The notes under the pieces were generated by a model that saw nothing but the letters and a program-made list of their open reading frames with translations, was not told the DNA's origin and did not search any database. Position numbers and translations under genes: made by a program. 22,853 nt of DNA from a virus, in IMG/VR virus record IMGVR_UViG_3300037963_000139, positions 1 to 22,853 of that record, one strand, 5' to 3'. Below, piece after piece: positions 712-19,938 of this stretch (its first letter is position 1; the number at the start of each line of letters is the position of its first letter).

Positions 712-768
712 TAACAAGAGAAATGAAAACGTGGCAAAGATAATAAAAAAAACTAAATATTAACTATT

Positions 769-782
769 TCTATTATATATTA
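769..782 (+). promoter_or_regulatory. Late control motif, copy 1 (before the tail block)
   Basis: TCTATTATATATTA ends one base before the ATG at 784. It matches the copies at 10325, 11059 and 13485, except that the palindromic core is imperfect here. The 32 bases at 751-782 match 10306-10337 at 27 positions. I infer a phage-specific promoter or operator. No TAnnTTTG host-type element is present here. Confidence 0.5.
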
Positions 783-783
783 G

Positions 784-1386
784 ATGAAAGTTGCAATTAA
801 AAAAAAGGGTAAAAAAAAGCAGTACAAATTAATTGAGAGTTGGGAGGATGTAACATTAGAGAAGTGGATTAAATTAATAAACATTAATGATAATGATAAA
901 AGTAAAGAGGCATTAGAAACCATAGCACTTTTATCAGACATTCCTAAAAAGCTGATTAACCAATTAGGAATACAAGATGTAGCATTAATATTAAGTAAGA
1001 TAGCAGAGTTACAAAAAAAGGCAAATAGTTCTTTAAAAAAGATAATTGAGATAAATGGCAAAAGATACGGATTTCATCCTAGCCTATCAGATATAACATT
1101 AGGTGAGTATGCTGATTTAGAGGCTTTTATGAAAAATGATTTGCAGCAAAATTTAGCAAATGTAATGGCGATTCTTTACAGACCAATTATTGAAGAGGGA
1201 GAGAATGGATTTTATACTATTGAGAGTTATGATGGCAAAATAGATAAGAGGGCGGAAGAGATGAAAAAAATGAGTTCGGAGCAAGTGCAATCTGCCCTGG
1301 TTTTTTTTTGGATTTTCGTAAAGGGGTTGTTAATGACTTTGGAGTTATCTTTGATTCGCAGCATGAGGGAAACGAAACAGCAATAG
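784..1386 (+). CDS. Tail assembly chaperone, short form (G-like)
   Basis: A 200-residue protein that is lysine-rich at the start (KVAIKKKGKKKQ) and mostly helical after that. I recognise the stretch GFHPSLSDITLGEYADLE from Bacteroidota phages, but it has no well-known biochemical name. The assignment as a G-type tail assembly chaperone rests on architecture: near its end the frame crosses nine T (1301-1309), and a -1 slip there joins it to an 85-residue frame ending at 1565, as in the gpG/gpGT pair of lambda. Such proteins bind the tape measure during tail assembly. The short form ends 25 codons after the slip site at TAG 1384-1386. A distance of about 7 kb to the tape measure gene is unusual for this role. 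The ATG at 784 lies just after the late motif. Confidence 0.6.
   Translation: MKVAIKKKGKKKQYKLIESWEDVTLEKWIKLININDNDKSKEALETIALLSDIPKKLINQLGIQDVALILSKIAELQKKANSSLKKIIEINGKRYGFHPSLSDITLGEYADLEAFMKNDLQQNLANVMAILYRPIIEEGENGFYTIESYDGKIDKRAEEMKKMSSEQVQSALVFFWIFVKGLLMTLELSLIRSMRETKQQ
1302..1308 (+). other. Probable -1 programmed frameshift site (T TTT TTT)
   Basis: In the frame of the 784 gene the codons read CTG GTT TTT TTT TGG, so a T TTT TTT heptamer sits in the correct register for simultaneous -1 slippage, inside a run of nine T (1301-1309). After slippage, reading continues as TTG GAT TTT CGT into the frame that ends at 1565. Ribosomal slippage, RNA polymerase slippage on the T-run, or a homopolymer sequencing error would all look the same here. 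Confidence 0.6.
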
Positions 1387-1565
1387 CAACTGAAGATTTT
1401 GCAAGTCAATGGAATTGGTTCGGAGTGATGTATAGACTAGCAGGAGGGCAAATAGTAAATTTAGAAGCAGTAACCAAATTAAATCTTTATGAGTGTTTAA
1501 CATGGTTAACGTATGAAACAGAATTAGATTCACAAAATAGAGTAAAATATGGCAGTAACCAATAA
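1308..1565 (+). CDS. Tail assembly chaperone, -1 frame extension (T-like)
   Basis: An 85-codon open frame in the -1 register relative to the 784 gene. It has no convincing start of its own: its first codon is a TTG inside the T-run, with no leader. Read as a continuation of residues 1-175 of the 784 protein, it gives a 260-residue fusion. The segment is coding-like, with WNWFGVMYRLAGG and a helical end, NLYECLTWLTYETELDS, similar in character to T domains of tail chaperones. Its stop overlaps the next gene's ATG (1549) by 17 bases, consistent with translational coupling. Alternatively the 784 and 1308 frames are a single gene split by an indel in the T-run. Confidence 0.6.
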   Translation: MDFRKGVVNDFGVIFDSQHEGNETAIATEDFASQWNWFGVMYRLAGGQIVNLEAVTKLNLYECLTWLTYETELDSQNRVKYGSNQ

Positions 1566-2097
1566 GACATACAACAACGTAATAGAAACTCTAGCAAGGC
1601 TAGGTGAGTATCACGACCAAATACAAACAGTTTCAGTTGGTGATATTTTTGATATTAATTTAGAGAAAATGGAAAAAATGCCTTTGTTGCATATTAATCC
1701 TGTTAATGTTACAACAGGTGATGCACAGCTTACCTATAACTTTCAAATATTTATTTGTGATTTAGTTAGCGAAAAGGATAACTGGCAAACCCACAATGCA
1801 AAAGGATTAACAAAGCTAATAGACAATAAAAACAACGAGCAACAAGTATATAATCAAACTTTAGAAATAGCAACAGATTTTATAGGGATGTTAAGACATA
1901 GTACAAGACAATCATTAGCAGGTGTTGATGATATTAATAAGCCTTTGTACTTTACGCAAGACCAGTTTACAATAGAGCCATTTAGCGAGAGGTTTGATAA
2001 TTTGCTATGCGGTCAAGTGTTCCAAATTGGCATCTTAGTAATGAATGACTTTGATACTTGTAATATTCCTGTAACGGATGCAGGAGCAGGATACTAA
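1549..2097 (+). CDS. Conserved phage structural or tail-joining protein, function uncertain
   Basis: A 182-residue protein without signal peptide or membrane segment. The N-terminus (YNNVIETLARLGEYHDQI) is helical, followed by alternating strands and helices, and it ends with NLLCGQVFQIGILVMNDFDTC. I have seen this type of protein next to tail genes in Bacteroidota phages, where it usually remains hypothetical. Size, fold pattern and position between the chaperone and a gp10-like protein would suit a tail terminator or completion factor, but no diagnostic motif proves it. It overlaps the chaperone extension by 17 bases, and its stop TAA shares a base with an ATG at 2097, so the junction looks translationally coupled. 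Confidence 0.5.
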   Translation: MAVTNKTYNNVIETLARLGEYHDQIQTVSVGDIFDINLEKMEKMPLLHINPVNVTTGDAQLTYNFQIFICDLVSEKDNWQTHNAKGLTKLIDNKNNEQQVYNQTLEIATDFIGMLRHSTRQSLAGVDDINKPLYFTQDQFTIEPFSERFDNLLCGQVFQIGILVMNDFDTCNIPVTDAGAGY

Positions 2098-2113
2098 TGC
2101 TTAAGTTTAGAAT

Positions 2114-2521
2114 ATGGAAGATAGAGATACAAATAATACCACCAAAGATAACAATAAAGTTATGAGTTTTGATGATGTAATAGACATGGCAGAAGCTGTT
2201 AGTATTAAAATGGCTAGTTATAATGACTACCCACAATCAGCAACTAACAATGCTAAACGTGCATTAAAATGGGTGGAAAAAAACGGATGGGGTTCTTGCG
2301 GAGAGGCAACAGGAAAAAAAAGAGCAAGGATGTTAGCAAATAGAGAAAACATCAGCCGAGATACGATTGCAAGAATGGCATCATTTAAAAGACATCAACA
2401 ACATAAAGACGTTCCATATAGTGAGGGATGTGGTGGTTTAATGTGGGATGCATGGGGTGGCACATCAGGTATTGAGTGGGCAATAAGAAAATTAAAACAA
2501 ATAGATAAAAATAAAAAATAA
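2114..2521 (+). CDS. Small conserved Bacteroidota-phage domain protein (KRHQQ/WDAWGG type)
   Basis: A 135-residue protein. From about residue 37 it carries a very conserved-looking block with these landmarks: AKRALKW, NGWGSCGEATGKKRA, ISRDTIARMASFKRHQQ, EGCGGLMWDAWGG and IEWAIRKL. I recognise this block from Bacteroidota phages, sometimes as a separate gene and sometimes attached to head proteins; its biochemical role is not known to me. The two Cys-Gly motifs and several invariant-looking Trp and His residues suggest a compact fold. The first 16 residues (Asn/Thr/Asp-rich) look non-conserved, and ATG 2162 (residue 17, giving MSFDDVIDMAEA) is a plausible alternative start. A 22-codon frame at 2097-2165 would link the previous stop to that ATG through TAATG and ATGA overlaps. 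Confidence 0.65.
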   Translation: MEDRDTNNTTKDNNKVMSFDDVIDMAEAVSIKMASYNDYPQSATNNAKRALKWVEKNGWGSCGEATGKKRARMLANRENISRDTIARMASFKRHQQHKDVPYSEGCGGLMWDAWGGTSGIEWAIRKLKQIDKNKK

Positions 2522-2526
2522 CAATT

Positions 2527-2976
2527 ATGGCAAATTTAGTAGTAACAGTATCTGAAAGTGTAACCATTAATGGGGCTTTAAGAGGTTCATCAAACAGCTT
2601 AACAGTTACAGATATAACAGATACTTTTGAAAGGGTAATAACATGCCCTCATACAGCAACAACAACAATAGCAACATTTTCATCAAATGTATATGATAGT
2701 GCAGGAGCATTAGACAAAGAAAATGTGAGATATATTAGAGTTTCTAACTTATCAGCCACTCATGATATAGAAATCGGAGTAGCAGGAACAGCTTCTAATT
2801 ATTCCATGTTAATACCTGCCGGAAACTCACACCTTATAGCTAGGGCAGATGATGTTATGTTGGCAGAAGCTGATGCGGTTCCTACTTATGGCTCTTTAGC
2901 AGATATTGCTAAATTAGAAGTAAGACCAACAGCAACAACAGATGTAGATGTAGAAATATTTGTAGCTAGTATATAA
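2527..2976 (+). CDS. Small beta-rich virion protein, unknown
   Basis: A 149-residue protein, rich in Thr, Ser, Ala and Val with alternating polar and hydrophobic residues, and nearly free of Cys and Trp. It has no signal peptide. The pattern (short strands such as NLVVTVSESVTI, YIRVSNLSATHDIEIGVAG and VDVEIFVASI) suggests a beta-sandwich structural protein. Position inside the tail block, five bases after the previous gene and sharing one base (TAATG) with the next, suggests a virion component such as a tail or decoration protein. I do not recognise a named family. The ATG at 2527 is the only good start. Confidence 0.5.
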   Translation: MANLVVTVSESVTINGALRGSSNSLTVTDITDTFERVITCPHTATTTIATFSSNVYDSAGALDKENVRYIRVSNLSATHDIEIGVAGTASNYSMLIPAGNSHLIARADDVMLAEADAVPTYGSLADIAKLEVRPTATTDVDVEIFVASI

Positions 2977-3542
2977 TGGAAACCAACAATCTTGAAAGGT
3001 ATTTAGAAAGCTTTGGTAAATATATAGTCAAACAGGCTAGAACTAATTTAACCAAAGGTAAAAAAAATGTAGATAAAAATCTATACAATTCTCTAAGCTT
3101 TAAGGTTGTTGAAGATTCAGGCGGATTTACTTTGGAACTTTACATGGCAGATTATGGTAAATATGTAGACAAGGGAGTTTCAGGAACTAAAAAGGCTCAA
3201 AAATATACAGACTACAAAGGCGAAACAAAAACCACACCATACAAACGTGCAAAACAACCACCATCAGGATTAATTGAGAGATGGATAAAAAAAAGAGGCA
3301 TAAGAGGTAGGGTAGATAAAAAATGGAAGAGTGCAGGAAACAGAGGGGGGCAGTTTATAACAGATAAATCCTTTGCCTTTTTAATTTCAAGAAGCATTAA
3401 GTTTAATGGAACAAAAGGAATTAGTTTTTTTCAAAGACCATTAATGTTAGGATTAAAAAGATTTCGCAAAGAAATGTTATCGGCTGTTAAAAAAGATATA
3501 TTAAACACTTTAGACAAAGCACCTAATACAACAGTAAAATAA
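2976..3542 (+). CDS. HK97 gp10-like tail completion (neck) protein
   Basis: A 188-residue basic protein. The N-terminus is helical (YLESFGKYIVKQARTNL), then comes the hallmark YGKYVDKGVSGTKK, where HK97 gp10-type proteins have a conserved Y-x-x-Y/F-V-x-x-G motif, followed by Pro- and Lys-rich segments and a helical C-terminus (PLMLGLKRFRKEMLSAVKKDI). Family members sit at the head-tail junction and help finish tails. The length is slightly above the usual 110-160 residues because of an insert around residues 95-130 (KKRGIRGRVDKKWKSAGNRGG). It begins by sharing one base with the previous stop (TAATG). Family recognition is by motif only, without a search. Confidence 0.65.
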   Translation: METNNLERYLESFGKYIVKQARTNLTKGKKNVDKNLYNSLSFKVVEDSGGFTLELYMADYGKYVDKGVSGTKKAQKYTDYKGETKTTPYKRAKQPPSGLIERWIKKRGIRGRVDKKWKSAGNRGGQFITDKSFAFLISRSIKFNGTKGISFFQRPLMLGLKRFRKEMLSAVKKDILNTLDKAPNTTVK

Positions 3543-3548
3543 AAAAAT

Positions 3549-5000
3549 ATGTCAGTTCAAAATTCAGTAATAGAGCAACAACCACTATACCCTACAATGC
3601 CTGTGGGGCAGGATGTTATTTTTGTAATATCAAATGATGATGCGGTAGCAAATTATGAAAAGGTAAAATTTATAGTTGATATACATATTAGCAGTACAAC
3701 ACCGCCTGATGTTACAACCACAAATGATTTAGTTGGCAGTTATAAAACAACGCCTAATAATGCAGGTGTGGGAATGTTTGATTTACGTAATGTTTTAGAA
3801 AACTATGTAGAGGCAGATAATATGGCTGCTGATGGCAGTAGTTATAAATCAACAGTAACAAGTCCTGAAGAAAGACATCCTATACATTTAATAGATAAGT
3901 ATTCCGTAAACAATAATACTACTAGATACATGGCATTAGTATTTGCAGTAGAATTTTTGGGAGCAACAGATGCAGCAGGGAATCAGGATGCAAACACAGT
4001 TCGCAGGCAGGTAGGAACAGAAGTAAATTCAGATTTATTTGTTTTATTTAATGGCTATTTAAAATATACTGATAAATTGATGATGGGAACCCCTGTAAAC
4101 AATAATTTTGGATTTACAATGGTTGATTTCTTTCCTGCTGCTGTTGGGCTTCCTTTTGTAACTGATAAAAAGTTTTTAACAAATGCTCCATTAATACAAT
4201 ATGCTAATTTAGAAGATTACGGAACACTTGCTTTTTTAGCACCAACAGATTTAATAGGCAATAATGTAACATCAATAAAAATATCATATTTTGATTCAGC
4301 AGGGGCGGCAGTAGGAACGCCTGATACAGTAACTAAAAGCATAGGAACAGGGGCTTATACTGTTTGGGATGCTGAGATAAATAAACAAATTGTATTTTTT
4401 GGTTGCTATCCTGGCAATTTACAAAATTGGAGTACAACCTTTCAGGCTAATACATCTACAATAAGCTATTATACCATTAAGGCTTTAGATGCAAGTGGTG
4501 ATGATTCTACAAAAACTTATACAATAAACATTAATTGTCCTGATGGTTTTGGCTATGAATCTATTAGGCTTTGTTGGCTTAATCAATGGGGTGCTTGGGA
4601 TTACTACACGTTCACAAAAAAATCAACTAGAACCATATCTACAAGCGGCACAACTTACACACAATTGCCAGGAACTTGGAACTCATCTTTATATAGGCTA
4701 GATACTTACAAAGGCGGTAAAAAAGCATTAAGAAGAAATGCAACTGAAAGGATTAGTATGAACACAGACTTTGTAAAAGAAGATGATAATGTAATGTTTG
4801 AAGAACTAACAAACAGCCCAGAAGTTTATTTGTTAGAGGGCTACCAAACTGATGAAAACTTTGCGGCATTAAATCAATATGTAACACCTGTAACATTAAG
4901 CAGTTCATCATTTACTAAAAAAACAATAGCTAATGATAAATTGATACAATATTCTTTTGAGGTAGAAAAAACAAAAATGCTAAGAACACAATCTGTATAA
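3549..5000 (+). CDS. Large tail or adsorption structural protein, unknown
   Basis: A 483-residue protein with beta-rich composition, many Thr, Asn and aromatic residues, and no signal peptide. Visible landmarks are VIFVISNDDAVANYEKVKFIVDIH near the N-terminus, GMFDLRNVLENYV around residue 75, and WLNQWGAWDYYTFTKKSTRTI around residues 345-365. The combination of an FDLRNVLENY-type motif with a GAWDYY motif is familiar from Bacteroidota phage tail proteins, but I know of no demonstrated function. It lies between the gp10-like protein and a 921-residue tail protein with which it shares the TAATG junction, so I infer a tail-tip or baseplate component. Confidence 0.5.
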   Translation: MSVQNSVIEQQPLYPTMPVGQDVIFVISNDDAVANYEKVKFIVDIHISSTTPPDVTTTNDLVGSYKTTPNNAGVGMFDLRNVLENYVEADNMAADGSSYKSTVTSPEERHPIHLIDKYSVNNNTTRYMALVFAVEFLGATDAAGNQDANTVRRQVGTEVNSDLFVLFNGYLKYTDKLMMGTPVNNNFGFTMVDFFPAAVGLPFVTDKKFLTNAPLIQYANLEDYGTLAFLAPTDLIGNNVTSIKISYFDSAGAAVGTPDTVTKSIGTGAYTVWDAEINKQIVFFGCYPGNLQNWSTTFQANTSTISYYTIKALDASGDDSTKTYTININCPDGFGYESIRLCWLNQWGAWDYYTFTKKSTRTISTSGTTYTQLPGTWNSSLYRLDTYKGGKKALRRNATERISMNTDFVKEDDNVMFEELTNSPEVYLLEGYQTDENFAALNQYVTPVTLSSSSFTKKTIANDKLIQYSFEVEKTKMLRTQSV

Positions 5001-7765
5001 TGAATACACAACTAATATTATATCCACAATCTTATACAGGGCAGTATAACACTACAACCAATACTTATACTATTGGTTCTACTGAGTTTGTTGTTGACGG
5101 CATGAACTTTAGCACTATAAACTCAGCACCAACATACGAACAGTTATTAGCTACTTTTTATCCGCCTGCTATTATTGCAGCAGCACCGCCTTCTATTATA
5201 AATTCATGGTATAAATTTAGGGCAGCATACGCAATACCACAGGCTGCATATCCTAGCAATGTTGGTAGTACATTGATTTTAAATTCTACCTCTAATCCTA
5301 CAATGACAGGGGTATATCAAAGACTTTCAGGCTTGACAATAGGGCAAAATTATGATATTACAGTAGATGTTGGTTCTATTAATAATGAAAGTTTAGACAT
5401 TAGGGCTTATGATGGCTCAACACAAATTGCAATACAGCAGTTTGCTGCGCCAATTACAGTAGGAACTTATACTTGTACGTTTACTGCAACTGCTGCTGAT
5501 AATACAATTAGTATTGCTTCTACTAGTTCAGTAGCAGGAAATTTAGTGATTAACAGTATATCGGTACTACAACAAGGGGCAGGAAATACAACTACAACTT
5601 ATCAATTAGAAGATGGGCAGGTTATATGCGACCTGTATGAAGATGAAAATATACCATTAACTTTAAGTGTTGATGATTTTAAAAATGCAGCAGAGCAGGT
5701 ACAATCTTACTCTAAGGCTTTTAAGCTACCAGGCACTAAAAAGAACAATTTAATATTTGATAATATCTTTGAGGTAACACGTTCTACAACAGGGCTAGTA
5801 TTTAATCCATATGTTAAAACTAAAAGTATTTTAAAGCAGGATGGATTTATTTTATTTGAGGGCTATTTAAGATTAATAGATATACAAGAAAAGCAGGGCG
5901 AGATAAGTTACAATGTGAACTTATATTCAGAGGTGATAGCCCTAGCAGACATGCTAGGAGAGGCTACATTAGCAGATTTAGGTTTTGAAGAGTTAGAGCA
6001 TGACTACGTAAAATCAAATATTAAAAATAGTTGGAACACATCAGGAACAGGAATTGCTTATACTAATTCTAATGCATCAGGATTTAGAGATGATTATAGC
6101 ACATTAAAATATCCGTTTTGTGATTGGAACCATCAGATGTTAGTGGCTAATGGTTCAACAGGCTCAGGGGCTACATTAGGCAACCCTGAATTAACACTAT
6201 TAGAGCAGGGATTTAGACCTTTTATTCAGGCTAAGTATTTAATAGATAGAATTTTTTATCAAACAGGCTCTCCATTTAGCTATACAAGTGAGTTTTTTAA
6301 TACTGATGAGTTTAAGGAATTATACATAGACTTTAACTGGGGCGAACAGAATCATGGAGCGGCTCCTGATAGAACAGATACGCTAAAAAGAGAATCGGAT
6401 TTATCTACTATACAAAATATGACTCAATCATTTGAGCCTGTGCAACTACAAACTTTTGTAAGTGGAAACAACGCTTTATATGCTAACCACAGATTTACCT
6501 CTGATGTAGCTAATTTAGAAGTGTCAGGCTCAGTAAGAATACAATTAGAAAATACAAGTTCATTGCAAACTAGAAGTTCTACTATGGCTTTTGGTAGGTA
6601 TAATCAGGGTGGGGCTGTAATTGAATATTTTGAAGTTGTTAATGTAGATATTGCACCATTAGGCTCAGGAGCCTTAAATGTTACTTTTGATACAATATTA
6701 AATCCTGGCGAGTTTTTAATGCCTGTTGCTAAACAGGATAGTAATGCAGGGGATGTAAGAGTTTCAACAGGAACCACGTCATTTTTTGATGTATCATATA
6801 ACAACCATGCAGCAACAGTAGAATCTCTATTAATAAAAGAACGTGGCGATTTGTCACAATGGGAACTAATAAAAGGTATAATGACAATGTTTAACTTAGT
6901 TTCAATACCTGATAAATCAAATCCTAATAATATATTAATAGAGCCTTATAATGATATATTTTTAAACAACGCTAATAGTAAGCAATTAGATTGGACTAGC
7001 AAAATAGATGTAGAAGAGGTTAAATTAACACCACTAACAGAATTAAAAAGATTAACTACTTTTAAATTTGTAGAGGATGATGATGATTATGCTTTTAATC
7101 TTTACAAAGGGGCGGTACAAGGGCATTTATATGGCTCTAAAATTTTTGATGCTTCTGTTTCTGGTGGTGGTTTGCCTACAATATTAACAGGAGAGGAAGA
7201 AATAATAGCAGAACCATTTGCAGCAACAGTACCTAAGCCTTTGATGTCGCAGTTTTCTGATTTTATTACACCTGCAATATATTCTTATAATGCTGATGAT
7301 GGCACTTCGCAGGGGTTTGCAAATAGCCCTAGAATTATGTTTAACAATGGCGTAAAGACTTTAACAAGTTGCACGTATTATATCCCTGCTCAAAATACAG
7401 AAGCAGGAGAGCAAATGACAGACTTTTTACAGTTTAGCCATTTAACAGATATTCCAACTGTAACAACAATACCACCATTAGCAACAGATACAAATGATTT
7501 TCACTTTGGGGATTGTCAGCTAATAAATCCAATAGGAAACGCAACAACAAACAACCTATTCTATCTTTATTGGCTACCTTATTATAATGAGTTATACAAT
7601 CCTGATACAAGGACTATGACATTAAAAGTAAATTTAACTCCAGGTGATATGAACAGCTTTAATTTCTTTGATACTGTATTTATCAAAAACAGAGAATATA
7701 GAGTAAATAAAATAGATTACAAACCAGGCGATTTAGCAACAGTAGAATTTATACTTATTATATAA
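5000..7765 (+). CDS. Large tail-tip / adsorption protein with a carbohydrate-binding-like region
   Basis: A 921-residue protein. Residues about 70-190 read like a jelly-roll carbohydrate-binding module (LTIGQNYDITVDVGS, then SLDIRAYDGS and TYTCTFTATAADNTISI). From about residue 200 there is a block I associate with Bacteroidota phage tail proteins: ENIPLTLSVDDF, SYSKAFKLPGTKKN and GFILFEGYLRLIDIQEKQG. The end has NREYRVNKIDYKPGD. The middle is beta-rich with no catalytic motif that I can name. The size and position among adsorption genes suggest a tail-tip or hub protein contacting host glycans. It shares one base with both neighbours (TAATG at 5000 and 7765), so the three large proteins are probably translated together. 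Confidence 0.55.
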   Translation: MNTQLILYPQSYTGQYNTTTNTYTIGSTEFVVDGMNFSTINSAPTYEQLLATFYPPAIIAAAPPSIINSWYKFRAAYAIPQAAYPSNVGSTLILNSTSNPTMTGVYQRLSGLTIGQNYDITVDVGSINNESLDIRAYDGSTQIAIQQFAAPITVGTYTCTFTATAADNTISIASTSSVAGNLVINSISVLQQGAGNTTTTYQLEDGQVICDLYEDENIPLTLSVDDFKNAAEQVQSYSKAFKLPGTKKNNLIFDNIFEVTRSTTGLVFNPYVKTKSILKQDGFILFEGYLRLIDIQEKQGEISYNVNLYSEVIALADMLGEATLADLGFEELEHDYVKSNIKNSWNTSGTGIAYTNSNASGFRDDYSTLKYPFCDWNHQMLVANGSTGSGATLGNPELTLLEQGFRPFIQAKYLIDRIFYQTGSPFSYTSEFFNTDEFKELYIDFNWGEQNHGAAPDRTDTLKRESDLSTIQNMTQSFEPVQLQTFVSGNNALYANHRFTSDVANLEVSGSVRIQLENTSSLQTRSSTMAFGRYNQGGAVIEYFEVVNVDIAPLGSGALNVTFDTILNPGEFLMPVAKQDSNAGDVRVSTGTTSFFDVSYNNHAATVESLLIKERGDLSQWELIKGIMTMFNLVSIPDKSNPNNILIEPYNDIFLNNANSKQLDWTSKIDVEEVKLTPLTELKRLTTFKFVEDDDDYAFNLYKGAVQGHLYGSKIFDASVSGGGLPTILTGEEEIIAEPFAATVPKPLMSQFSDFITPAIYSYNADDGTSQGFANSPRIMFNNGVKTLTSCTYYIPAQNTEAGEQMTDFLQFSHLTDIPTVTTIPPLATDTNDFHFGDCQLINPIGNATTNNLFYLYWLPYYNELYNPDTRTMTLKVNLTPGDMNSFNFFDTVFIKNREYRVNKIDYKPGDLATVEFILII

Positions 7766-8613
7766 TGGCATCAATACCTTACATAACAGGATTTGCAATA
7801 AAACCTGCAAAGATTAGCGGAACAGGAGTTGTAACATTTACAGATGGCAGGAATGAGATAGTTCCTAACCAAAGACAATGCGAAGCCTATGGATATACCT
7901 ACAACCCAACAACAGGAACTTGTGAAGCTTTTAAATATAGTTCTAATTTAAGTGTAAATCTAAACAACGAAAATAACAACGTACAAGGCTCACAAAACGT
8001 AACAGGAGTAGGCACTAACAACACCTATATAATGGGTGAGAATAATGAGGTTATTGACGTGTCAAGAAACAACATTTTAGTAGGTAGTAGAAACCAAATC
8101 ACTAAACAGGTAGATAACACCGCAGTTTTTGGCACTTTAGGAGAGGTTAGAGAAACAAACTCATTTGTTATAGGGGGTAATGCTACATCAGACGTTTTAG
8201 GCAAAAGGCAAAGTGTTCAATTATTATATGGTGGACAAACAACAGATGGCAATACTGTAAATTCTTATTTAAATAATACAACAGATTCTTTTGTAGTAGT
8301 ACCTGATAACACTATAATGTATTTTCATGCTGATTGTGTAGCTGTTAGAGTTGGCGGAACTAGCGGCTCAGGAGCAGTAGGTGATTTTAAGTCATGGGTA
8401 GAACGTGGCGTTGTAATTAACAAGTCAGGAACACTAAGCATAGAAAGAGAAAGAGATACAATCAAAGGCTCAGGTACTACAACAGGATGGCAGCCAACAG
8501 GGGCAGTATCAGGAACTAATTTTTTGTTACAAATAAAAGGAACTAATAATATGACTTTAGAATGGGCTTTAAATGTAACATTCACACAAATAAAAACAGG
8601 AGTAGCACTATAA
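7765..8613 (+). CDS. Tail fibre or spike with YadA-head-like repeats
   Basis: A 282-residue protein. Residues about 65-150 contain short repeating units with Asn, Gly and hydrophobic residues (ENNNVQGSQNV, NNTYIMGENNEV, NNILVGSRNQI, NTAVFGTLGEV, NSFVIGGNAT). This is the pattern of left-handed beta-roll heads in trimeric adhesins, also common in phage fibres. The C-terminal 120 residues (from about QSVQLLYGG) are beta-rich, end in WALNVTFTQIKTG, and resemble fibre tip domains. Cys39 and Cys53 in the N-terminal region could pair. It probably forms a trimeric receptor-binding fibre. It is coupled to the upstream 921-residue protein by TAATG and lies 10 bases before the tape measure. Confidence 0.65.
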   Translation: MASIPYITGFAIKPAKISGTGVVTFTDGRNEIVPNQRQCEAYGYTYNPTTGTCEAFKYSSNLSVNLNNENNNVQGSQNVTGVGTNNTYIMGENNEVIDVSRNNILVGSRNQITKQVDNTAVFGTLGEVRETNSFVIGGNATSDVLGKRQSVQLLYGGQTTDGNTVNSYLNNTTDSFVVVPDNTIMYFHADCVAVRVGGTSGSGAVGDFKSWVERGVVINKSGTLSIERERDTIKGSGTTTGWQPTGAVSGTNFLLQIKGTNNMTLEWALNVTFTQIKTGVAL

Positions 8614-8623
8614 ATAAAAAGAT

Positions 8624-10165
8624 ATGTCAAAAGTAGTATTAGAAGCAGAAATAAAATCAAATATTAAATCGGTATCAAAAGAAACTAAAGACTTAACCAA
8701 TAATTTTGGTGCTTTTGGTATTACCATAGGCAGCATAAAAGAGAAATTTAATGACTTAGGCAAAATAATGTTAAATGGCTTAACTCAAATAAAATTACAA
8801 GCACAATTAGCAGGAGTTGGATTTAAGCAGATGTTTAGCGGCCAAATAATTAGAGGGGCAAAAAATTTGTTTACAGCTATTAGAGTAGGGGTTGCTGCAA
8901 CAGGTGTTGGGGCTTTAGTTATAGCATTTACATCATTAGTTACATTTTTAACAAAAACTAAAAAAGGAGCAGAACTGCTAGAGGTTGCAATGGCAGGACT
9001 TGGAGCAGCATTAAGTGTAATAACAGATAGAGCCTCTAAACTAGGTGGTGCGATTGTTTCGCTTTTTAAAGGAGATACAAAGGCTGCCTTAGAGGGTGTT
9101 AAAGGCACGTTTTCAGGTATTGGTGATGAAATAGTTGAAGATACTAAAAAAATAATGGCTTTAAAAAGAGCCTTTCAAGCATTGAGAGATAGCAATAGAG
9201 AGTTAAACGTAGAAACAGCAGAGCAAAGGGCGGAAATTGAAAGGTTAAAATTAATAGCAGAAGATGTTACTAAATCTACGCAAGAAAGGTTAGCAGCAGC
9301 AAAAGAAGCATTTAAAATAGAAAATGATTTGCTAGATAGGAGGATTGCAAATGCAAAAGAGGCATTAAGAATACAGCGAGAGGAAATGAAAACCGCAACA
9401 AACATGGATGATGCTTTAGATAGAGAGGCTCAGTTAAGAATTGATTTAGCAAACATACAACAAGAAAGTACAACAAAGCAAATAGAGTTAAACAACAAAA
9501 TTAATGCTATTGAAGCTGAGGCACAGGCTAAAAGAGATGCCGCATTTGAAAAGGAAAAAGCTCAAAATATTGAAAGGACTAAGGATTTAACATTAATGCC
9601 TGCCATAGTTGCAAAAGTAAACAACGAACTTATACAGGCAGATAATGATTATTTTGCACAATTAGAAATAAATCAAACAAAGAAAAAACAGCTAGAAAAG
9701 GACTTACAGGCTTTTAGAAAAGATGCCACAATGCAGGGGCTACAACTGATACAACAAGCAGCAGGTGAGGGTACTGCAATAGGTAAGGCAGCAGCAATAG
9801 CCCAAGCTACAATTACAGGAACGCAAGGGGTTATAAATGCTTTTACAGCAGCAAATCAAAATTTTGCACTAACAGCAGCAACAGCAGGTGGTTATCCAAT
9901 AGTGATGGCAGGACTAGCAGCAGGTTTTGCCGCTACAAATATTGCTAAAATTGCAGCAGGTTCACCCCCTAGTGCAAGTGGCGGAGGCGGAGGCGGAGGA
10001 GCAGGCCAAATGGTGCCACAAACACCTGCACCACAAATGATGTCAGGTGCTTTTGAATTAGGCGGAGGCTTAGCCCCAGAGCCTATGAAAGCGTTTGTCG
10101 TAACTGATGAAATGACTAATTCGCAAGACCAATTAGCTAACATTAGGCGACAAGCTACAATATAG
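8624..10165 (+). CDS. Tape measure protein
   Basis: A 513-residue protein that sets tail length and is ejected with the DNA. Visible features: an alanine- and glycine-rich hydrophobic segment at about residues 86-110 (VGVAATGVGALVIAFTSLV) and a second at about 120-150; a long charged coiled coil at about 175-370, rich in Glu, Lys, Ala and Arg; a second Ala-rich hydrophobic stretch near 390-450; and a run of seven Gly near 455. This domain order is typical of tape measures. The length predicts a rather short tail if the usual 1.5 angstrom per residue applies, about 77 nm. It is unusual that the gene follows the fibre genes instead of preceding them. The ATG at 8624 follows the upstream stop by 10 bases. 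A weak hairpin follows the stop. Confidence 0.8.
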   Translation: MSKVVLEAEIKSNIKSVSKETKDLTNNFGAFGITIGSIKEKFNDLGKIMLNGLTQIKLQAQLAGVGFKQMFSGQIIRGAKNLFTAIRVGVAATGVGALVIAFTSLVTFLTKTKKGAELLEVAMAGLGAALSVITDRASKLGGAIVSLFKGDTKAALEGVKGTFSGIGDEIVEDTKKIMALKRAFQALRDSNRELNVETAEQRAEIERLKLIAEDVTKSTQERLAAAKEAFKIENDLLDRRIANAKEALRIQREEMKTATNMDDALDREAQLRIDLANIQQESTTKQIELNNKINAIEAEAQAKRDAAFEKEKAQNIERTKDLTLMPAIVAKVNNELIQADNDYFAQLEINQTKKKQLEKDLQAFRKDATMQGLQLIQQAAGEGTAIGKAAAIAQATITGTQGVINAFTAANQNFALTAATAGGYPIVMAGLAAGFAATNIAKIAAGSPPSASGGGGGGGAGQMVPQTPAPQMMSGAFELGGGLAPEPMKAFVVTDEMTNSQDQLANIRRQATI

Positions 10166-10169
10166 CTAT

Positions 10170-10187
10170 AACGCATTTTAAAGCGTT
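10170..10187 (+). terminator. Weak hairpin after the tape measure gene
   Basis: AACGC (10170-10174) pairs with GCGTT (10183-10187) around an AT loop, followed by TTTAAGC with only a short T-run. It is the only stem visible in the 172-base gap to the next gene and fits the end of the tail operon, but it would be a poor terminator. Confidence 0.35.
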
Positions 10188-10324
10188 TTAAGCAACTTTA
10201 TGGATTGACTAGTATATTAGTATTAAAAAACAAATAAAATAAAAACACTAGAGTAAAGCCAACAAAATGAAAAATATTATGTTAAATAATAAAATTTTAA
10301 AAATCAAACAAATTATTAACTAAA

Positions 10325-10337
10325 TCTATTATATAAT
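10325..10337 (+). promoter_or_regulatory. Late control motif, copy 2 (before the protease gene)
   Basis: TCTATTATATAAT ends immediately before the ATG at 10338 and contains the perfect 10-base palindrome ATTATATAAT. AAATCAAACAAA lies at 10301-10312, and the same 12-mer lies at almost the same distance before copy 3. A promoter whose start point lies downstream of this motif would put the start codon outside the mRNA, so either transcription starts at the motif edge or the element acts otherwise. Confidence 0.55.
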
Positions 10338-11057
10338 ATGCCATGTAAAAAATGCGAAAACGGAAAATATAAATTCGGCAATACTGGTGAGTGTAAATAT
10401 GACACGTTAACCGAATGCCAACAAGATAATAAAGACTATTACGAAAAAACTACATCAATCGTAGAACTTGTAATTGCAGATGATAGTGAAGAGTTAGCTA
10501 TTGATGCTATTAGCTTAGTAAACTCTCCTGCAATAGAACAGGACTTTGTATTCTTTGGTAAAGAAAAAAATAATCTAACCTTTGCTAAGGTAGATGAAGA
10601 AAAAAGAATGCTAGTTAGTCCTGCATTAATACCTAACAAACATATATTTAGATACGACACTAATACAGACTCTGAGTATTATGTTTACTTTAGTCCTGAA
10701 ACAGTACGCAAGGCTAGTGAGTTATATTTAAAGCATAACAACCATCACAAAGCTACACACGAACATAATGAACGAGTAAGCGGAGTTCTAACAGTAGAAT
10801 CATGGATAAAAGAGGGTGATAGTGATAAATCTAAATTATATGGCTATGATTTGCCTAATGGCACATGGTTTGTTAAAATGAAAATAACAAATGATGAACT
10901 TTGGAGAGAAATTAAAGAGGGTAAATTAAAAGGGCTTAGTATAGAGGGCTACTTTACAGATAAGATGGCTAAGATGTCAGAGAGAACACCAACAGATGAA
11001 GAAATACTATCAGCTTTAAATGAGATAATACGTGAAAATCAAACAAACTCAAAATAA
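10338..11057 (+). CDS. Prohead protease, XkdF-like (Peptidase_S78_2)
   Basis: A 239-residue protein matching XkdF-type prohead serine proteases in its landmarks: ISLVNSPAIEQDF (about 58-70), KRMLVSPALIPNKHIFR (about 89-105), YYVYFSPETVRKAS, KATHEHNE with the likely catalytic His (141 or 143), NGTWFVKMKI and GLSIEGYF with the likely catalytic Ser201. The enzyme processes scaffold and capsid precursors inside the prohead, which fits its position just before the scaffold and major capsid genes. The first 30 residues form a separate Cys-rich motif (C3, C6, C19, C27, with NGKYKFG) that looks like a small metal-binding module. No alternative start keeps it, so ATG 10338 is preferred although it abuts the late motif. 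Confidence 0.85.
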   Translation: MPCKKCENGKYKFGNTGECKYDTLTECQQDNKDYYEKTTSIVELVIADDSEELAIDAISLVNSPAIEQDFVFFGKEKNNLTFAKVDEEKRMLVSPALIPNKHIFRYDTNTDSEYYVYFSPETVRKASELYLKHNNHHKATHEHNERVSGVLTVESWIKEGDSDKSKLYGYDLPNGTWFVKMKITNDELWREIKEGKLKGLSIEGYFTDKMAKMSERTPTDEEILSALNEIIRENQTNSK

Positions 11058-11058
11058 A

Positions 11059-11070
11059 TCTATTATATAA
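11059..11070 (+). promoter_or_regulatory. Late control motif, copy 3 (before scaffold and capsid)
   Basis: TCTATTATATAA follows the protease stop by one base and lies 20 bases before the scaffold ATG at 11091. AAATCAAACAAA at 11036-11047, inside the end of the protease gene, repeats the 12-mer upstream of copy 2 with one base less spacing. Its position before the most highly needed virion genes fits a separate start of transcription. Confidence 0.5.
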
Positions 11071-11090
11071 CAGAACCTAAAACATTAATC

Positions 11091-11807
11091 ATGGATATTA
11101 AAGAACAAATATTAGTAGCACTTGGTTTAAACAAAGCTGAGGAAGAAATTAAATTAGGATGGCAGTCTAAGTCAGAAGATGGTGGAACTATTTTCGTTTC
11201 TACTGCTGAGGAACTAGAAGCAGGTGTAGATATATCTGTATTGCTAGAGGATGGCACGACAATCCTTGTTCCAATCGGAACTTACAAAACAGATACAGGA
11301 GTATCATTTAGAGTAGAAGAAGAGGGTGTTGTTTCAGAAGTTATGGAATCAGAAACAGAGGAAGAGGATACAGCAGATGATTTAGCAGAAGAAAAGGAAG
11401 AAATGGCAAAAGAAGATGATAAGGATGAGTATGATGAAGAGGCAGCAGTTTATGACTGGGAAGGAATGGAGAAAAGAATTAAAAACCTGGAGGATGCTGT
11501 GGCTGACCTTAAAAGAGAGATAGGTGAAACAGGTGATGTTGAAGAAATGGCAGAAGAAACAGCAGAGCCATCTACAAATCCTAAATCTATTAAAACAACA
11601 GAGGTGGTAGAATTTTCAGCAGAAGATGAAATAGAAAAATTAAAAGCTGAAAACGAAAAGTTAAAAATGGAATTAGCGGCAAGTCCTGCTGATGCTCCAA
11701 TTAACACAAACAAATTTAGTACAGAAAGCAAAACAAGAACTTATACAAAAAAAGAATTAAGGAGGATGACACCTAACGAAAGATTCTTAATGAAACTAAA
11801 TAAATAA
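11091..11807 (+). CDS. Scaffolding protein
   Basis: A 238-residue, very acidic protein. The N-terminal part (about 1-85) is ordered and beta-like (GGTIFVSTAEELEAGVDISVLL). It is followed by a Glu/Asp-dominated stretch at about 87-120, a coiled coil at about 125-145 (GMEKRIKNLEDAVADLKREIG), a second coiled coil at about 185-205 (DEIEKLKAENEKLKMELA), and a basic end (KKELRRMTPNERFLMKLNK). An acidic body, coiled coils and a basic C-terminal tail that can contact the capsid lattice are typical of scaffolds. Placement between the prohead protease and the major capsid gene strongly supports this. No family-specific motif is visible. Confidence 0.75.
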   Translation: MDIKEQILVALGLNKAEEEIKLGWQSKSEDGGTIFVSTAEELEAGVDISVLLEDGTTILVPIGTYKTDTGVSFRVEEEGVVSEVMESETEEEDTADDLAEEKEEMAKEDDKDEYDEEAAVYDWEGMEKRIKNLEDAVADLKREIGETGDVEEMAEETAEPSTNPKSIKTTEVVEFSAEDEIEKLKAENEKLKMELAASPADAPINTNKFSTESKTRTYTKKELRRMTPNERFLMKLNK

Positions 11808-11834
11808 TAATTAACAAATAAAAAACAAAAAAAA

Positions 11835-12746
11835 ATGGCAGAACCAACAGTAAATCAAACGTTTACAGGACGTGAAGCTGGATTTTATATCTCAGCAGCT
11901 TTGCAGGATAGCGTGTCTTTAGACTACATGACAATCCTTGAAAACGTAAAATACAAAATGAATGTTCAAACACTTGGAGCAGCAAATGTAGTAAGAGACG
12001 CAACTTGTGACTTTACAGACCATGGAACTCTTGATTTGGGAGAAAGAGTTTTAGAAGTTGAGCCTTTCCAAATTAACTTAGACTTATGTAAGAAAAATCT
12101 TTTAAGTTCTTGGGAGGCGTTAAGCATGAGAGCAGGAGCAGGGGGTGCGCCAGCACCAGCATTTACAGACTATGTAATATCTTACATGGCTAGCAACATT
12201 TCTTCACAAGTTGAAAAATGTATTTGGACAGGTAACACAGCAAACAATGGTGAGTTTACAGGATTCGTAACAGGTGGTGTGGGGCTTTTATTAGGAGCAG
12301 GAGCAACTCAAGTTGCAGCTTCAGCAACACCATTTTCAGCAGCAAATATTATAGCTAACTTAGGCGAGGCTTACACAGCTATTTCAGATGCTTTATTTGG
12401 TAAAGATGACCTATATATTTATATGTCACCAACTTCTTACCAAATGTATATACAAGCATCATCAGCTTTAACGAACTTCCCTTACGCAAATATGAGTGAA
12501 GATTACATACCTGTATTTAATGGTGTAAAATTAGCAGTTTGCAATGGAATGGGAGATGATGAGTTAGTAGTAGCACAAAAAAGCAACTTATTCTTTGGAA
12601 CAGATTTAATCTCTGACACAGATGGAGCTTCAATAAGAATCATGGACATGGCTGCTTTAGACGGTTCAGACAATATGAGAATTGTTTGTCGTTATAATGC
12701 AGGTGTGAAGCAAGGAATCACAACAGATATTGTAAGAGTATCATAA
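11835..12746 (+). CDS. Major capsid protein (HK97-fold type)
   Basis: A 303-residue protein, the expected size for a capsid protein with a separate scaffold. Visible features are an N-terminal arm (residues 1-25, FTGREAGFYISAALQ), a helical segment with NLLSSWEALSMRAGAGG at about 90-110, the stretch ISYMASNISSQVEKCIWTG typical of the spine helix of HK97-fold capsids, and KDDLYIYMSPTSYQMYIQAS with an NAGVKQGI segment near the end. It assembles the icosahedral shell and is probably trimmed or matured with help of the 10338 protease. The gene has its own A-rich leader and a UUCG-capped hairpin just downstream. Identification rests on position after the scaffold, size and overall pattern. Confidence 0.8.
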   Translation: MAEPTVNQTFTGREAGFYISAALQDSVSLDYMTILENVKYKMNVQTLGAANVVRDATCDFTDHGTLDLGERVLEVEPFQINLDLCKKNLLSSWEALSMRAGAGGAPAPAFTDYVISYMASNISSQVEKCIWTGNTANNGEFTGFVTGGVGLLLGAGATQVAASATPFSAANIIANLGEAYTAISDALFGKDDLYIYMSPTSYQMYIQASSALTNFPYANMSEDYIPVFNGVKLAVCNGMGDDELVVAQKSNLFFGTDLISDTDGASIRIMDMAALDGSDNMRIVCRYNAGVKQGITTDIVRVS

Positions 12747-12764
12747 TAAACTTAATTAACAGAT

Positions 12765-12784
12765 GCGAGGGCTTCGGCTCTCGC
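12765..12784 (+). terminator. Stable UUCG tetraloop hairpin after the major capsid gene
   Basis: GCGAGGGC (12765-12772) pairs with GCTCTCGC (12777-12784) over a TTCG tetraloop, eight pairs with one G-U. No T-run follows, so it is more likely a partial terminator or an mRNA-stabilising structure that separates capsid expression from the next gene. Confidence 0.6.
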
Positions 12785-12812
12785 CTCTATAACCTTTAAA
12801 ACATAAAAAAAT

Positions 12813-13397
12813 ATGGCATGTACTAATTTAACTAAAGGTAGAGGGCTTGATTGTAATAGAGTATCAGGTGGCATCAAATACGTTTATTTTGGAGTTTACG
12901 ACCAGTTTACAGCACCTATTGATGGAACAGGTATTGTAGTTTCTAATGGTGAAATAACAGATATTGAGATGGGGGCAGGAACTGGCTTGTATCGTTACAC
13001 AATGCCATTAGGCGTTGCATCAGCTACTGATACGATAACAGGTAGTAGAGAAAACGGAAGTGTATTCTATGAGCCAACAGTAGAAGTTATTTTAAATAGA
13101 CTAACTAAAGAAGACCAACACGAGATTAAGCTTTTAGCCTCAACAAAAGTAGTTGTATTTTGTCAGTTAAATGCACAATTAGCAAACGGACATGATGTGA
13201 TTATTGGAATGGGGGTTGTTAACGGAATGGAACTTAATGCAGGAACTATGGTTACAGGGGCTGCTTTCGGTGATAGAGGCGGTTATAATCTCACACTATC
13301 AGGTATGGAGGCAGAGCCTTTTGCAATGGTAGCAGATTATACTACAAATCCATTTGATAACGCAGCATTTACAAATGTATCTATAACTACATCATAA
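12813..13397 (+). CDS. Probable major tail tube protein
   Basis: A 194-residue protein that starts MACTNLTKGRGLDCNR followed by GGIKYVYFGVYDQF. The end carries GMGVVNGMELNAGTMVTG, GDRGGYNLTLSGMEAEP and FAMV, a layout I associate with tail tube or major tail proteins of Bacteroidota siphoviruses: a G-x-x-x-G-x-x-L turn, then a GD-x-x-GY-x-L strand and a G-x-E-x-x-P end. It would form the hollow tube through which DNA passes. It is the last gene before a strong terminator and is cotranscribed with scaffold and capsid, which fits a protein needed in many copies. A head decoration protein is the main alternative. Confidence 0.5.
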   Translation: MACTNLTKGRGLDCNRVSGGIKYVYFGVYDQFTAPIDGTGIVVSNGEITDIEMGAGTGLYRYTMPLGVASATDTITGSRENGSVFYEPTVEVILNRLTKEDQHEIKLLASTKVVVFCQLNAQLANGHDVIIGMGVVNGMELNAGTMVTGAAFGDRGGYNLTLSGMEAEPFAMVADYTTNPFDNAAFTNVSITTS

Positions 13398-13433
13398 AAC
13401 TTATCATTAGTTTTTATATATATTCTTGATTAG

Positions 13434-13460
13434 GAGGGCTTTATGCCCTCTTTTTCTTTT
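13434..13460 (+). terminator. Intrinsic terminator after the scaffold-capsid-tube operon
   Basis: GAGGGC (13434-13439) pairs with GCCCTC (13445-13450) over the loop TTTAT, followed by TTTTTCTTTT (13451-13460). This is a standard Rho-independent terminator in the + direction. The next late motif begins 25 bases further on. Confidence 0.9.
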
Positions 13461-13484
13461 ATTAGCAAATAAATAAGACCTTTT

Positions 13485-13497
13485 TCTATTATATAAT
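13485..13497 (+). promoter_or_regulatory. Late control motif, copy 4 (before decoration/portal block)
   Basis: TCTATTATATAAT lies directly after the strong terminator at 13434-13460 and 13 bases before the ATG at 13511. Here the palindrome extends to 14 bases, CTATTATATAATAG (13486-13499). CAAATAAA at 13466-13473 occupies the place of CAAACAAA before copies 2 and 3. Its position just past a terminator is the best argument that the motif starts transcription. Confidence 0.6.
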
Positions 13498-13510
13498 AGG
13501 TACACTAATT

Positions 13511-14209
13511 ATGATACACGCAACAACAAATTCTAGCTTTCATGCATACATACAAACTCAGGATGTGAGGATTGGTACTGCTAATGATACTAATACAAGA
13601 TATTTGTTTAAGTTTACTAATGATATGAGTGGTGCTGTACAATATGCTTATCCTGAGCAGCAATTATACAACAGGTATAGTAAATTCTCATTTAGCTACA
13701 ACGCAACGCCTGATGTGTTTTTAGGGCGTGTTGATTTAAAACCTGCAGGATATTGGAAATATGAAGTTTATGAGGTTACATGGGGGGCTTTTGCAGCATT
13801 AGATAATGAACAAGCACCATCAACTGAATTAGCAGTATTACTACCTGCAAGTATAAGAAGAGGTGTAGTACAAGGATTAGTTACAAAGGGCAAAATGTTA
13901 GTATCAGAACTTAGCGGAACAGAAGAGGTGCAATATACTCAAAATGGTGGCGAGGTTATCAGTTTAGACATAGCTTATGGCGGTATTGGCTACCCTATCG
14001 CTCCTACTGTAACAATAACAGGTGATTGCATAACACCTGCAACTGCAACGTGTACCATATCAGGTGGTGTTGTAGATAGTGTAACTCTTACTTATGCAGG
14101 AAACGGATATACCGAAAACCCTGTTGTTACGCTTTCAAGTGTAGGCGAAACAGCAACAGCTAGTATAACAGCTAGTATTCAAGAAAACAATTATATTTAT
14201 AACGGATAA
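13511..14209 (+). CDS. Virion structural protein with tandem GGxVxxxxxxYxGxGY repeats
   Basis: A 232-residue protein. Residues 1-140 form a beta-rich domain with the landmarks TRYLFKFTNDMSG and DVFLGRVDLKPAGYWKYEVYEV, a pattern I know from Bacteroidota phage structural proteins of unknown role. Residues 146-183 and 184-220 are two copies of a repeat (GGEVISLDIAYGGIGY...PTVTITG...ATAT and GGVVDSVTLTYAGNGY...PVVTLSS...ATAS), common in phage fibre and adhesion proteins. It is the first gene after late motif copy 4. I infer a surface-exposed capsid or neck appendage; the exact place in the virion cannot be read from the sequence. Confidence 0.55.
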   Translation: MIHATTNSSFHAYIQTQDVRIGTANDTNTRYLFKFTNDMSGAVQYAYPEQQLYNRYSKFSFSYNATPDVFLGRVDLKPAGYWKYEVYEVTWGAFAALDNEQAPSTELAVLLPASIRRGVVQGLVTKGKMLVSELSGTEEVQYTQNGGEVISLDIAYGGIGYPIAPTVTITGDCITPATATCTISGGVVDSVTLTYAGNGYTENPVVTLSSVGETATASITASIQENNYIYNG

Positions 14210-14219
14210 AAATTAAAAA

Positions 14220-14498: not shown

Positions 14499-14499
14499 T

Positions 14500-15177: not shown

Positions 15178-15187
15178 AATAAAAAAT

Positions 15188-17191: not shown

Positions 17192-17199
17192 GATAGATT

Positions 17200-19631: not shown

Positions 19632-19645
19632 ATAAACTTGTTTAT
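19632..19645. promoter_or_regulatory. Palindromic operator candidate over the early -33 element
   Basis: ATAAAC, TT, GTTTAT forms a perfect 6+2+6 inverted repeat that covers the TTG of the early promoter (19638-19640). This is the usual place for a repressor to block RNA polymerase. No repressor gene is seen in the window. Confidence 0.4.
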
Positions 19646-19907: not shown

Positions 19908-19919
19908 AATATAAATACT

Positions 19920-19938
19920 AAAACAAAGAAAAATGAAA
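19920..19938 (+). repeat. Repeated translation leader, copy 2
   Basis: This is the second identical copy of the 19-base leader found at 19679-19697. It ends with the start codon and second codon of the 58-codon gene at 19933. Confidence 0.6.

Follow-up and report, generated by a model that had tools for sequence, protein, structure and literature searches.

The motif repeated before the late genes of the viral DNA analysed here (the window, 22,853 bases) is best read, from sequence comparison, as half of a late-gene promoter in a large group of uncultured marine phages. This promoter is most likely read by the phages' own sigma factor, whose DNA-reading loop appears to have changed together with the motif. 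We estimate at about 80% the probability that this is a bipartite late promoter in which the motif supplies the -10 half, recognised by the host core polymerase with a phage ECF-like sigma.

Motif copies and features of the window

The 11-base core TCTATTATATA was detected exactly at four of four places in the window, with no exact copy on the opposite strand; the 13-mer TCTATTATATAAT is matched in full at 10325-10337 and 13485-13497, and with a single mismatch at 769-781 and 11059-11071. When the window was modelled by second- and third-order Markov chains, the mean was 0.09 and 0.08 core copies on both strands together, with a maximum of 2 in 300 runs per model. The four copies claimed by an earlier sequence-only reading are real and well above chance. 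The 13-mer with up to three mismatches barely exceeds chance (62 matches against 43 expected). All four copies lie within the 1,666 of 22,853 bases uncovered by the listed open reading frames (ORFs), in the gaps before the tail block, protease, scaffold/capsid and decoration/portal genes where that reading had placed them. The features are given below, A13 being the conserved A after the core and d its distance to the ATG.

751-782, + strand: proposed late promoter 1 (tail block); box AACTAAA 751-757, core 769-779, A13 782; ATG 784, d=2
784-10165, + strand: tail gene block behind promoter 1; ORFs, tape-measure and unknown tail-like families
10305-10338, + strand: proposed late promoter 2 (protease); box CAAACAAA 10305-10312, one base farther upstream than elsewhere; core 10325-10335; A13 10338 doubles as the start codon's A, d=0
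10338-11057, + strand: prohead protease behind promoter 2; PHROG head maturation protease families
11040-11072, + strand: proposed late promoter 3 (scaffold/capsid); box CAAACAAA 11040-11047, core 11059-11069, A13 11072; ATG 11091, d=19
11091-13397, + strand: scaffold-like gene (named from position), major capsid protein and a further gene, behind promoter 3
13432-13460, + strand: terminator-like stem (13432-13452) with T-rich tail, dividing the capsid block from promoter 4
13466-13498, + strand: proposed late promoter 4 (decoration/portal); box CAAATAAA 13466-13473, core 13485-13495, A13 13498; ATG 13511, d=13
13511-17763, + strand: decoration-like gene to portal (phrog_33693, E=2.4e-67) and the following gene, behind promoter 4
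19638-19667, + strand: host-type promoter before the early operon; TTG, then TATCTTTG at 19660-19667
19692-22845, + strand: start of the early operon, with SSB and replication initiator; ORFs, family matches

The terminator claimed before the fourth copy is thus present as a terminator-like stem; the scan of the window for such stems gave 16 sites against 9.0 expected in shuffles. For the host-type promoter, the Bacteroidota sigma-A consensus was used as it stands in passages of PMC6847099 and PMC9723704. By inspection, the TAnnTTTG -7 box is absent at the four late sites and present at 19660, as the earlier reading had noted; the TAnnTTTG scan, run without a chance control, matches inside genes too.

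The palindrome did not hold as a conserved property. Its right end varies in the relatives (AAT, AGT, AAC, ACT, ATT, AAA, TAA), and ATTATATAAT has two more perfect copies, at 7757 and 20678, both outside the four sites. We rejected the palindrome as the functional unit, and the conserved dyad symmetry expected for a palindromic operator or activator was not found in the relatives, where the right half is variable. Because the palindrome is not conserved, the palindromic activator site that had been offered as one option is unsupported, while the other option, a phage-specific late promoter, is favoured by the comparative evidence.

A directional, bipartite unit in the relatives

The conserved unit is directional and bipartite, consisting of CAAAYAAA, about 11 bases and then TCTATTATATA-N-T-A. 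The upstream box stands at a nearly fixed distance from the core (before the tail block it reads AACTAAA), and both it and A13 are conserved across 71 non-redundant sites. The sequence-only reading had missed this box. The bipartite pattern was detected in at least 120 viral stretches, against 6 with the reversed pattern. In 22 long contigs there are 45 exact cores on the late strand against one on the opposite strand, and each late-strand core lies 0-47 bases upstream of a gene start.

Sites precede the late gene blocks in the window and stand at equivalent places in many relatives. The tail-block promoter is kept before the orthologous gene in most relatives, and orthologous sites are also present for the protease, scaffold/capsid and decoration/portal promoters; these counts leave out the negative-score rows of the ortholog-site table (terS, ParB, some protease), which are wrong starts, wrong orthologues or genes without this promoter. 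Within the blocks, no exact core occurs in the 62 bases before the starts of the portal and cluster-17 genes. Among 13 listed opposite-strand exact cores, 11 are the full palindrome TCTATTATATAATAGA, taken as forward promoters read backwards; the other two, in L049 and L161, look like chance. Divergent cores occur as well, with TATATAC in register at 4 of 5 sites in G023 and TATATTATATC at one of five sites in G018.

The copy abutting the protease ATG had seemed a puzzle, and it proved to be a family-wide feature: the ATG begins exactly at A13 in 76 of 180 non-redundant sites and within 3 bases of it in 98, with A13 weaker at the sites with d=1-3 (16/22), and the spacing to the ATG spans 0 to about 47 bases. 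Transcription would start at A13 or within about 3 bases of it; many late mRNAs are therefore predicted to be leaderless or nearly so. According to the part of PMC9723704 that treats them, leaderless mRNAs make up 5.5% in F. psychrophilum.

The sigma-like protein and its residue 76

The advice to seek a phage sigma factor outside the window proved sound. The unread stretch, about 5 kb long, is spanned by other contigs, and these encode a divergent ECF-like sigma protein; the nearest kin, L436, spans the window's two ends and carries the gene, as do the near kin L437, L439 and L440. That stretch is missing from the incomplete window record, whose own phage presumably has the gene too. In the relatives the gene lies farther downstream on the early-operon strand, beyond the position equivalent to the window end, and in most genomes a small conserved cysteine-rich protein (DUF6171) follows it. 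Of 42 long contigs, 36 encode the sigma-like protein and the other six are all below 25 kb; it was also detected in 8 of 9 promoter-selected contigs against 0 of 6 controls; the exception is a 23 kb fragment, and another of the nine holds only the last 26 sigma residues, at a contig edge. Conversely, promoters were found in 11 of 11 sigma-selected contigs.

The protein matches TIGR02937 (sigma70-ECF) over nearly its full length (E=5.5e-9), with a best score of 35.9 against a curated cut-off of 42.9 bits; Pfam sigma scores are likewise below their curated cut-offs. It is therefore named ECF-like and not filed as an ECF member. The AlphaFold model (pLDDT 72.7, pTM 0.43) has two helical parts and a loose linker at 90-125, suggesting with moderate confidence the ECF architecture of sigma-2 and sigma-4 only, joined by a linker. 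Nearly all of the model's fold matches listed are sigma factors, and it matches SigmaE domain 4 in fold (rmsd 1.4 over 66 residues); Foldseek gave no match at E 0.001 or better, the VIA-align Z was 11.5, a level that helical models may attain by chance, as the tool warns, and the PDB sequence-profile search was weak (best E 0.12).

The strongest evidence matching this protein to the promoter is the covariation of residue 76, located in the predicted -10 specificity loop, with the core. All 25 genomes with predominantly TCTAT cores have Arg at this position, and all 11 with other cores have Thr, Asn or His there, the core labels of divergent genomes being assigned by hand (G014 is doubtful; G009, G012 and G013 come from few sites). 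Residue 76 is the sole tested column without a residue shared between the two core groups, and lineages with different cores retain a matching phage sigma-like protein. Site by site, R pairs with C in 144 of 151 and N or H with A in 36 of 36; additional loci gave R/C 59, R/A 2, K/C 1 and Y/A 2, the site-level survey (148 loci; residue unreadable in 4, promoter in 32) overlapping the genome set, for example in contigs of L121, L154, L187 and L368. Single A-type sites are tolerated in R76 genomes (5/151 sites, plus 2/61 in the further loci), mostly before the protease, notably in G015, G054 and G056. The structural-gene tree has 4 independent switches, of which 4 agree (p 0.125), the sigma tree 3 and a larger sigma tree 2. 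With so few switches (2-4), the covariation is strong but statistically not decisive.

In the proposed scheme, a host sigma-A type promoter (TAnnTTTG) would drive the early operon containing the sigma gene, and the phage sigma would then switch on the tail, protease, capsid and portal blocks and, in relatives, the terminase and ParB/methylase genes. Its domain 4 would read CAAAYAAA and its domain 2 the core, residue 76 deciding between C and A at core position 1. We consider it somewhat better than an even bet that these phages, an abundant group, use a private late code in which one residue of the sigma's specificity loop sets one base of the -10 core, rewritten several times across most or all late promoters of a genome, with start-codon-fused promoters and leaderless mRNAs for many structural proteins.

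The host is presumed to be Bacteroidota, from the TAnnTTTG box and the TerL of relative G015, which is akin to those of Flavobacterium phage 11b and Cellulophaga and Bacteroides phages. Isolated phages gave no near DNA match to the window and no match to the G015 sigma; their only capsid matches were 4 Nonlabens phage records (22%). A profile scan of genome contigs with the sigma alignment returned 3 loci: two are on phage contigs that had been binned into MAGs of unrelated organisms, and the third is a weak partial match.

Alternative readings and known systems

The motif might instead be the site of a late activator working with the host primary sigma, for example the DUF6171 protein; its gene follows that of the sigma-like protein in most genomes, so that linkage would make it covary, and phage sigmas often require cofactors, as in T4. 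We consider this improbable, since the late promoters lack the host TAnnTTTG box, the spacing of the two boxes is sigma-like, and the residue that covaries best belongs to the sigma-like protein, within the loop that should read the -10 element. An RNA role, in which late mRNAs are made from promoters farther upstream and the motif acts on their translation or stability as a 5' element, would suit the 76 of 180 sites that abut the start codon, but the variable ATG spacing, the genes inside blocks without an exact core, the promoter-like box at fixed phase and the covariation with the sigma-like protein all speak against it and leave it with a slightly smaller chance.

A host alternative ECF sigma could read the promoter, the phage protein having another role, and F. 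psychrophilum has seven ECF sigmas according to the relevant part of PMC9723704. The motif and the phage protein, however, co-occur and covary, and the matching protein is kept in lineages with different cores, making this reading very improbable. The chance that a phage single-subunit RNA polymerase uses the motif as its promoter is close to negligible. Such promoters have in outline an AT-rich core ending near the start, which resembles the motif, but the search proposed with the sequence-only reading found PF00940 in 0 of 10 long relatives (T7 positive control, 9.9e-110), and the proteins of at least 250 aa encoded by G005 and G015 fall into clusters of terminase, ParB/methylase and structural type; we rejected it.

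A phage-sigma late promoter is the preferred reading. As proposed here, the T4 late promoter TATAAATA has an AT-rich core that a phage sigma, gp55, reads; it is not known to have an upstream box and needs the sliding clamp. A close parallel is phiEco32, whose gp36 is described as an ECF-type phage sigma for middle and late promoters, as also in SU10 and 7-11 (passages of PMC4281155, PMC4331800). By that description the two systems share a short, well-conserved, low-copy motif before late structural genes, on the late strand here, and would share a phage ECF-type sigma used with host polymerase. They differ in that the phiEco32 motif, tAATGTATAtA, lies 6-8 bases before mapped starts, whereas the core here is longer and has an upstream box, start codons are often at the predicted start base, the host is presumed Bacteroidota and genomes are about 29 kb (77 kb is given for SU10). 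As in bacterial ECF sigmas such as SigH and SigmaE, the model has two helical domains, and the sigma-2 specificity loop and strict spacing recall SigH, in which a loop between sigma-2 helices reads one flipped -10 base (part of PMC6411747). Unlike bacterial ECF sigmas, the phage protein scores below the HMM cut-off, no anti-sigma was identified for it, and the core is long and AT-rich instead of a short GTT-type -10 element. The late motifs quoted for AR9 (AACA-6N-TA/G) and phiKZ (TATG) in PMC5312081 are also short and phage-specific, with the start base inside or at the edge, and are read by phage multisubunit polymerases, unlike the proposal here; the gene lists of these 29-kb genomes showed no such polymerase. 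In open-licence papers we found no report of the late promoter or sigma described here; the family and its promoter appear new, of a kind already known from phiEco32.

If the proposal is true, these phages would make many leaderless or nearly leaderless mRNAs for structural proteins in a host phylum where such mRNAs are rare, which is a sharp prediction. The sigma and promoter would form a testable pair for phages infecting non-model marine bacteria, and the natural series of matched variants may make an ECF-type specificity code readable. In our opinion, such private pairs could also serve as expression tools in Bacteroidota.

A proposed late promoter in the window and its relatives

The window record (22,853 bases, virus) is apparently incomplete. 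Its gene order and the exact copies of the 11-base core TCTATTATATA are as follows.

Window gene order: start inside terminase large subunit, then tail, protease, capsid, portal and lysis genes, end in early operon
Early operon at the window end: SSB and replication initiator
769, + strand, non-coding: core before the tail block (copy 1)
10325, + strand, non-coding: core before the protease (copy 2)
11059, + strand, non-coding: core before scaffold/capsid (copy 3)
13485, + strand, non-coding: core before decoration/portal (copy 4)

The sequence-only reading had proposed a palindromic motif in four non-coding gaps, and the exact core was detected at all four places, with 0.08-0.09 copies expected on both strands together (Markov models of the window). 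The palindrome did not hold up as the specific unit, the shorter ATTATATAAT having two extra perfect copies in the window, at 7757 and 20678.

Scanning of viral contigs with the capsid protein detected 111 related stretches, and 80 (41-98% identity) were kept. The window and 21 relatives, 22 long contigs together, have 45 exact cores on the late strand vs 1 on the opposite strand, with a gene start 0-47 bases past each of the 45, two of which a crude gene caller labelled as inside a gene. Most precede terminase small subunit, ParB/methylase, tail-block, protease, scaffold or decoration genes, and in three cases the gene is unassigned and lies upstream of the protease. No exact core was found within 62 bases before the starts of the block-internal portal and cluster-17 genes.

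The alignment of 71 non-redundant exact-core sites detected a second conserved box, CAAATAAA, 11 bases upstream of the core (C or A at -19, AAA, T or C, AAA), T-rich positions immediately upstream of the core, and an A at position 13, just past the core, kept in 96% (A13). A handful of sites, window copy 2 among them, have one extra base between box and core. This bipartite pattern was found in at least 120 stretches in viral contigs vs 6 for the reversed pattern, 4 of the 6 in contigs >100 kb. The tail-block promoter (window 751-782) has AACTAAA where other late promoters have CAAAYAAA, as do nearly all relatives in which the site is readable; this retention points to gene-specific tuning of promoter strength, maintained over large divergence. 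The core ahead of the terminase genes in several loci (L159, L163, L197 and others) forms a full palindrome of 16 bases, TCTATTATATAATAGA, and another palindrome, TTGATTAATCAA, comes after it in the leader. Host-type TAnnTTTG boxes lie ahead of early operons in the window and many relatives, with the ATG ~21-46 bases past the box (pattern scan without chance control).

A sigma-like protein encoded with the proposed promoter

Of the 22 contigs examined first, 18 carry a gene for a sigma-like protein of ~187 amino acids, and so do 36 of the 42 in the enlarged set; in the other six, records 17.9-24.5 kb long, none was called. It was found in 8 of 9 long promoter-selected contigs (one an edge fragment only) vs 0 of 6 reversed-pattern control contigs, and all 11 sigma-selected contigs carry promoters (3-5 each, <=2 mismatches, one direction per contig).

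The TIGR02937 sigma70-ECF match is nearly full length (E=5.5e-9), yet below the curated cut-off; of 40 members, 33 matched a PHROG sigma-factor family and 35, weakly, Pfam sigma region 4. The AlphaFold model is all-helical with a loose linker (pLDDT 72.7, pTM 0.43), and its top Foldseek hits are sigma factors, those of the ECF type included, though none reaches E 0.001. VIA-align gave Z 11.5 against E. coli SigmaE over 150 residues with rmsd 13.3, indicating differently arranged domains, and Z 11.0 with rmsd 1.4 over 66 residues against SigmaE region 4 with its -35 DNA. Helical models may reach such Z by chance, therefore the concord of many sigma entries outweighs the score.

The window record itself has no sigma gene. 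The sequence-only reading had hinted at a phage sigma outside the window, and the nearest relatives indeed carry the gene in a stretch absent from the record. The 27.4-kb record L436 matches the window right end at 95% and the left end at 97%:

L436, 12726-13304: sigma gene, between the parts matching the window ends

Three further records (L437, L439, L440) likewise bridge the window ends with sigma between, at 85-96% identity, thus "outside the window" corresponds to ~5 kb of unread sequence. All four sigmas have Arg at residue 76, and the records have 3-4 late promoters each, one record with an additional opposite-strand match.

The 31-kb contig G032 has two different sigma-like matches, 698-1252 (L360) and 29145-29708 (L361), which could be two separate sigma genes or result from a join in the assembly. 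A cysteine-rich ~134-aa protein (PF19668 DUF6171, E=4.2e-8), a candidate cofactor or anti-sigma, is encoded behind the sigma-like gene in most genomes (L099:5455-5859 in relative G015, and orthologues), in two pieces in G009, G012 and G013. L099:6461-7711 codes for a fusion of a ParB-like domain with an N6/N4 DNA methylase and has its own late promoter; this gene is about half length in G005 and G006 (197-215 aa). Contigs of the group inside MAGs labelled Pseudooceanicola and Euryarchaeota (L325, L326) are probably wrongly binned.

Residue 76 and the first core base

All or most promoters are altered alike in some lineages: the core is TATATTATATA in relatives G017, G018, G021 and G052 (17/18 sites exact), TATATAC in G023 (4/5 sites), and TATATTTTATA in G008 and G016 (2 sites each). 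Every one of the 25 mainly-TCTAT genomes has Arg at residue 76, and the other 11 have Thr, Asn or His; this is the sole column tested with no residue shared between core classes and has the top mutual information. Among 148 sigma loci, some on contigs overlapping the first (36-genome) set, R76 occurs with C at core position 1 at 144/151 sites and N/H76 with A at 36/36. A further 80 loci, 62 with sigma, gave R/C 59, R/A 2, K/C 1 and Y/A 2. A fifth close relative, L438, has Tyr at 76 and a looser A-type site. The scattered R/A sites indicate that Arg-76 tolerates an occasional A-type site, often the protease promoter (G015, G054, G056); none of the loci compared combines N, H or Y with a C-type site.

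The AlphaFold model places residue 76 in a loop that joins two predicted helices (57-73 and 78-95). The specificity loop 72-79 of M. tuberculosis SigH reads one flipped -10 base, with T76 and N77 among the residues involved, according to PMC6411747, and residue 76 may correspond to it in position, by helix order rather than superposition.

The capsid, portal and terminase tree has four changes of each trait, and all four independent pairs agree (p 0.125), so few pairs that significance is unreachable even at 4/4. The sigma tree has three residue and three base changes. A sigma tree from a larger set thinned to 107 rows, of which 90 pair R or K with C, 16 pair another residue with A and 1 is an exception, has two residue changes and three base changes. 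The trees conflict on the placement of G017/G018 and G021/G052, suggesting that sigma genes may recombine while promoters still match.

Start codons and predicted transcript starts

Of 180 non-redundant sites, 76 have the next ATG at position 13 itself, 22 have it 1-3 bases further on, 8 at 4-9 bases and 72 at >=10 bases; in one it comes 3 bases earlier and one has no ATG. The protein starts are credible, since identical N-termini (MPC, MIQ, MKV) follow short and longer spacings alike. A13 is conserved independently of the ATG (37/40 sites at distance 10-20, 27/30 at 21-40), though more weakly at 1-3 (16/22).

Phage-encoded ECF-type sigmas that serve dedicated middle/late promoters have been described in phiEco32, SU10 and 7-11 (PMC4281155, PMC4331800), thus the kind is already known. 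The open-licence papers searched yielded no report of this sigma family or the promoter it is paired with, nor of start codons abutting such a promoter or a natural specificity series, and the family and promoter appear new.

A13 lies 5 bases past TATTAT, a position that allows it to be the predicted transcription start. In flavobacteria, merely 5.5% of mRNAs are leaderless (PMC9723704) and leaders exceed 10 bases in 87% (PMC6847099). If A13 is the start, the mRNAs with the ATG at this position would be leaderless; with a start a few bases earlier, their leaders would be 1-3 bases long.
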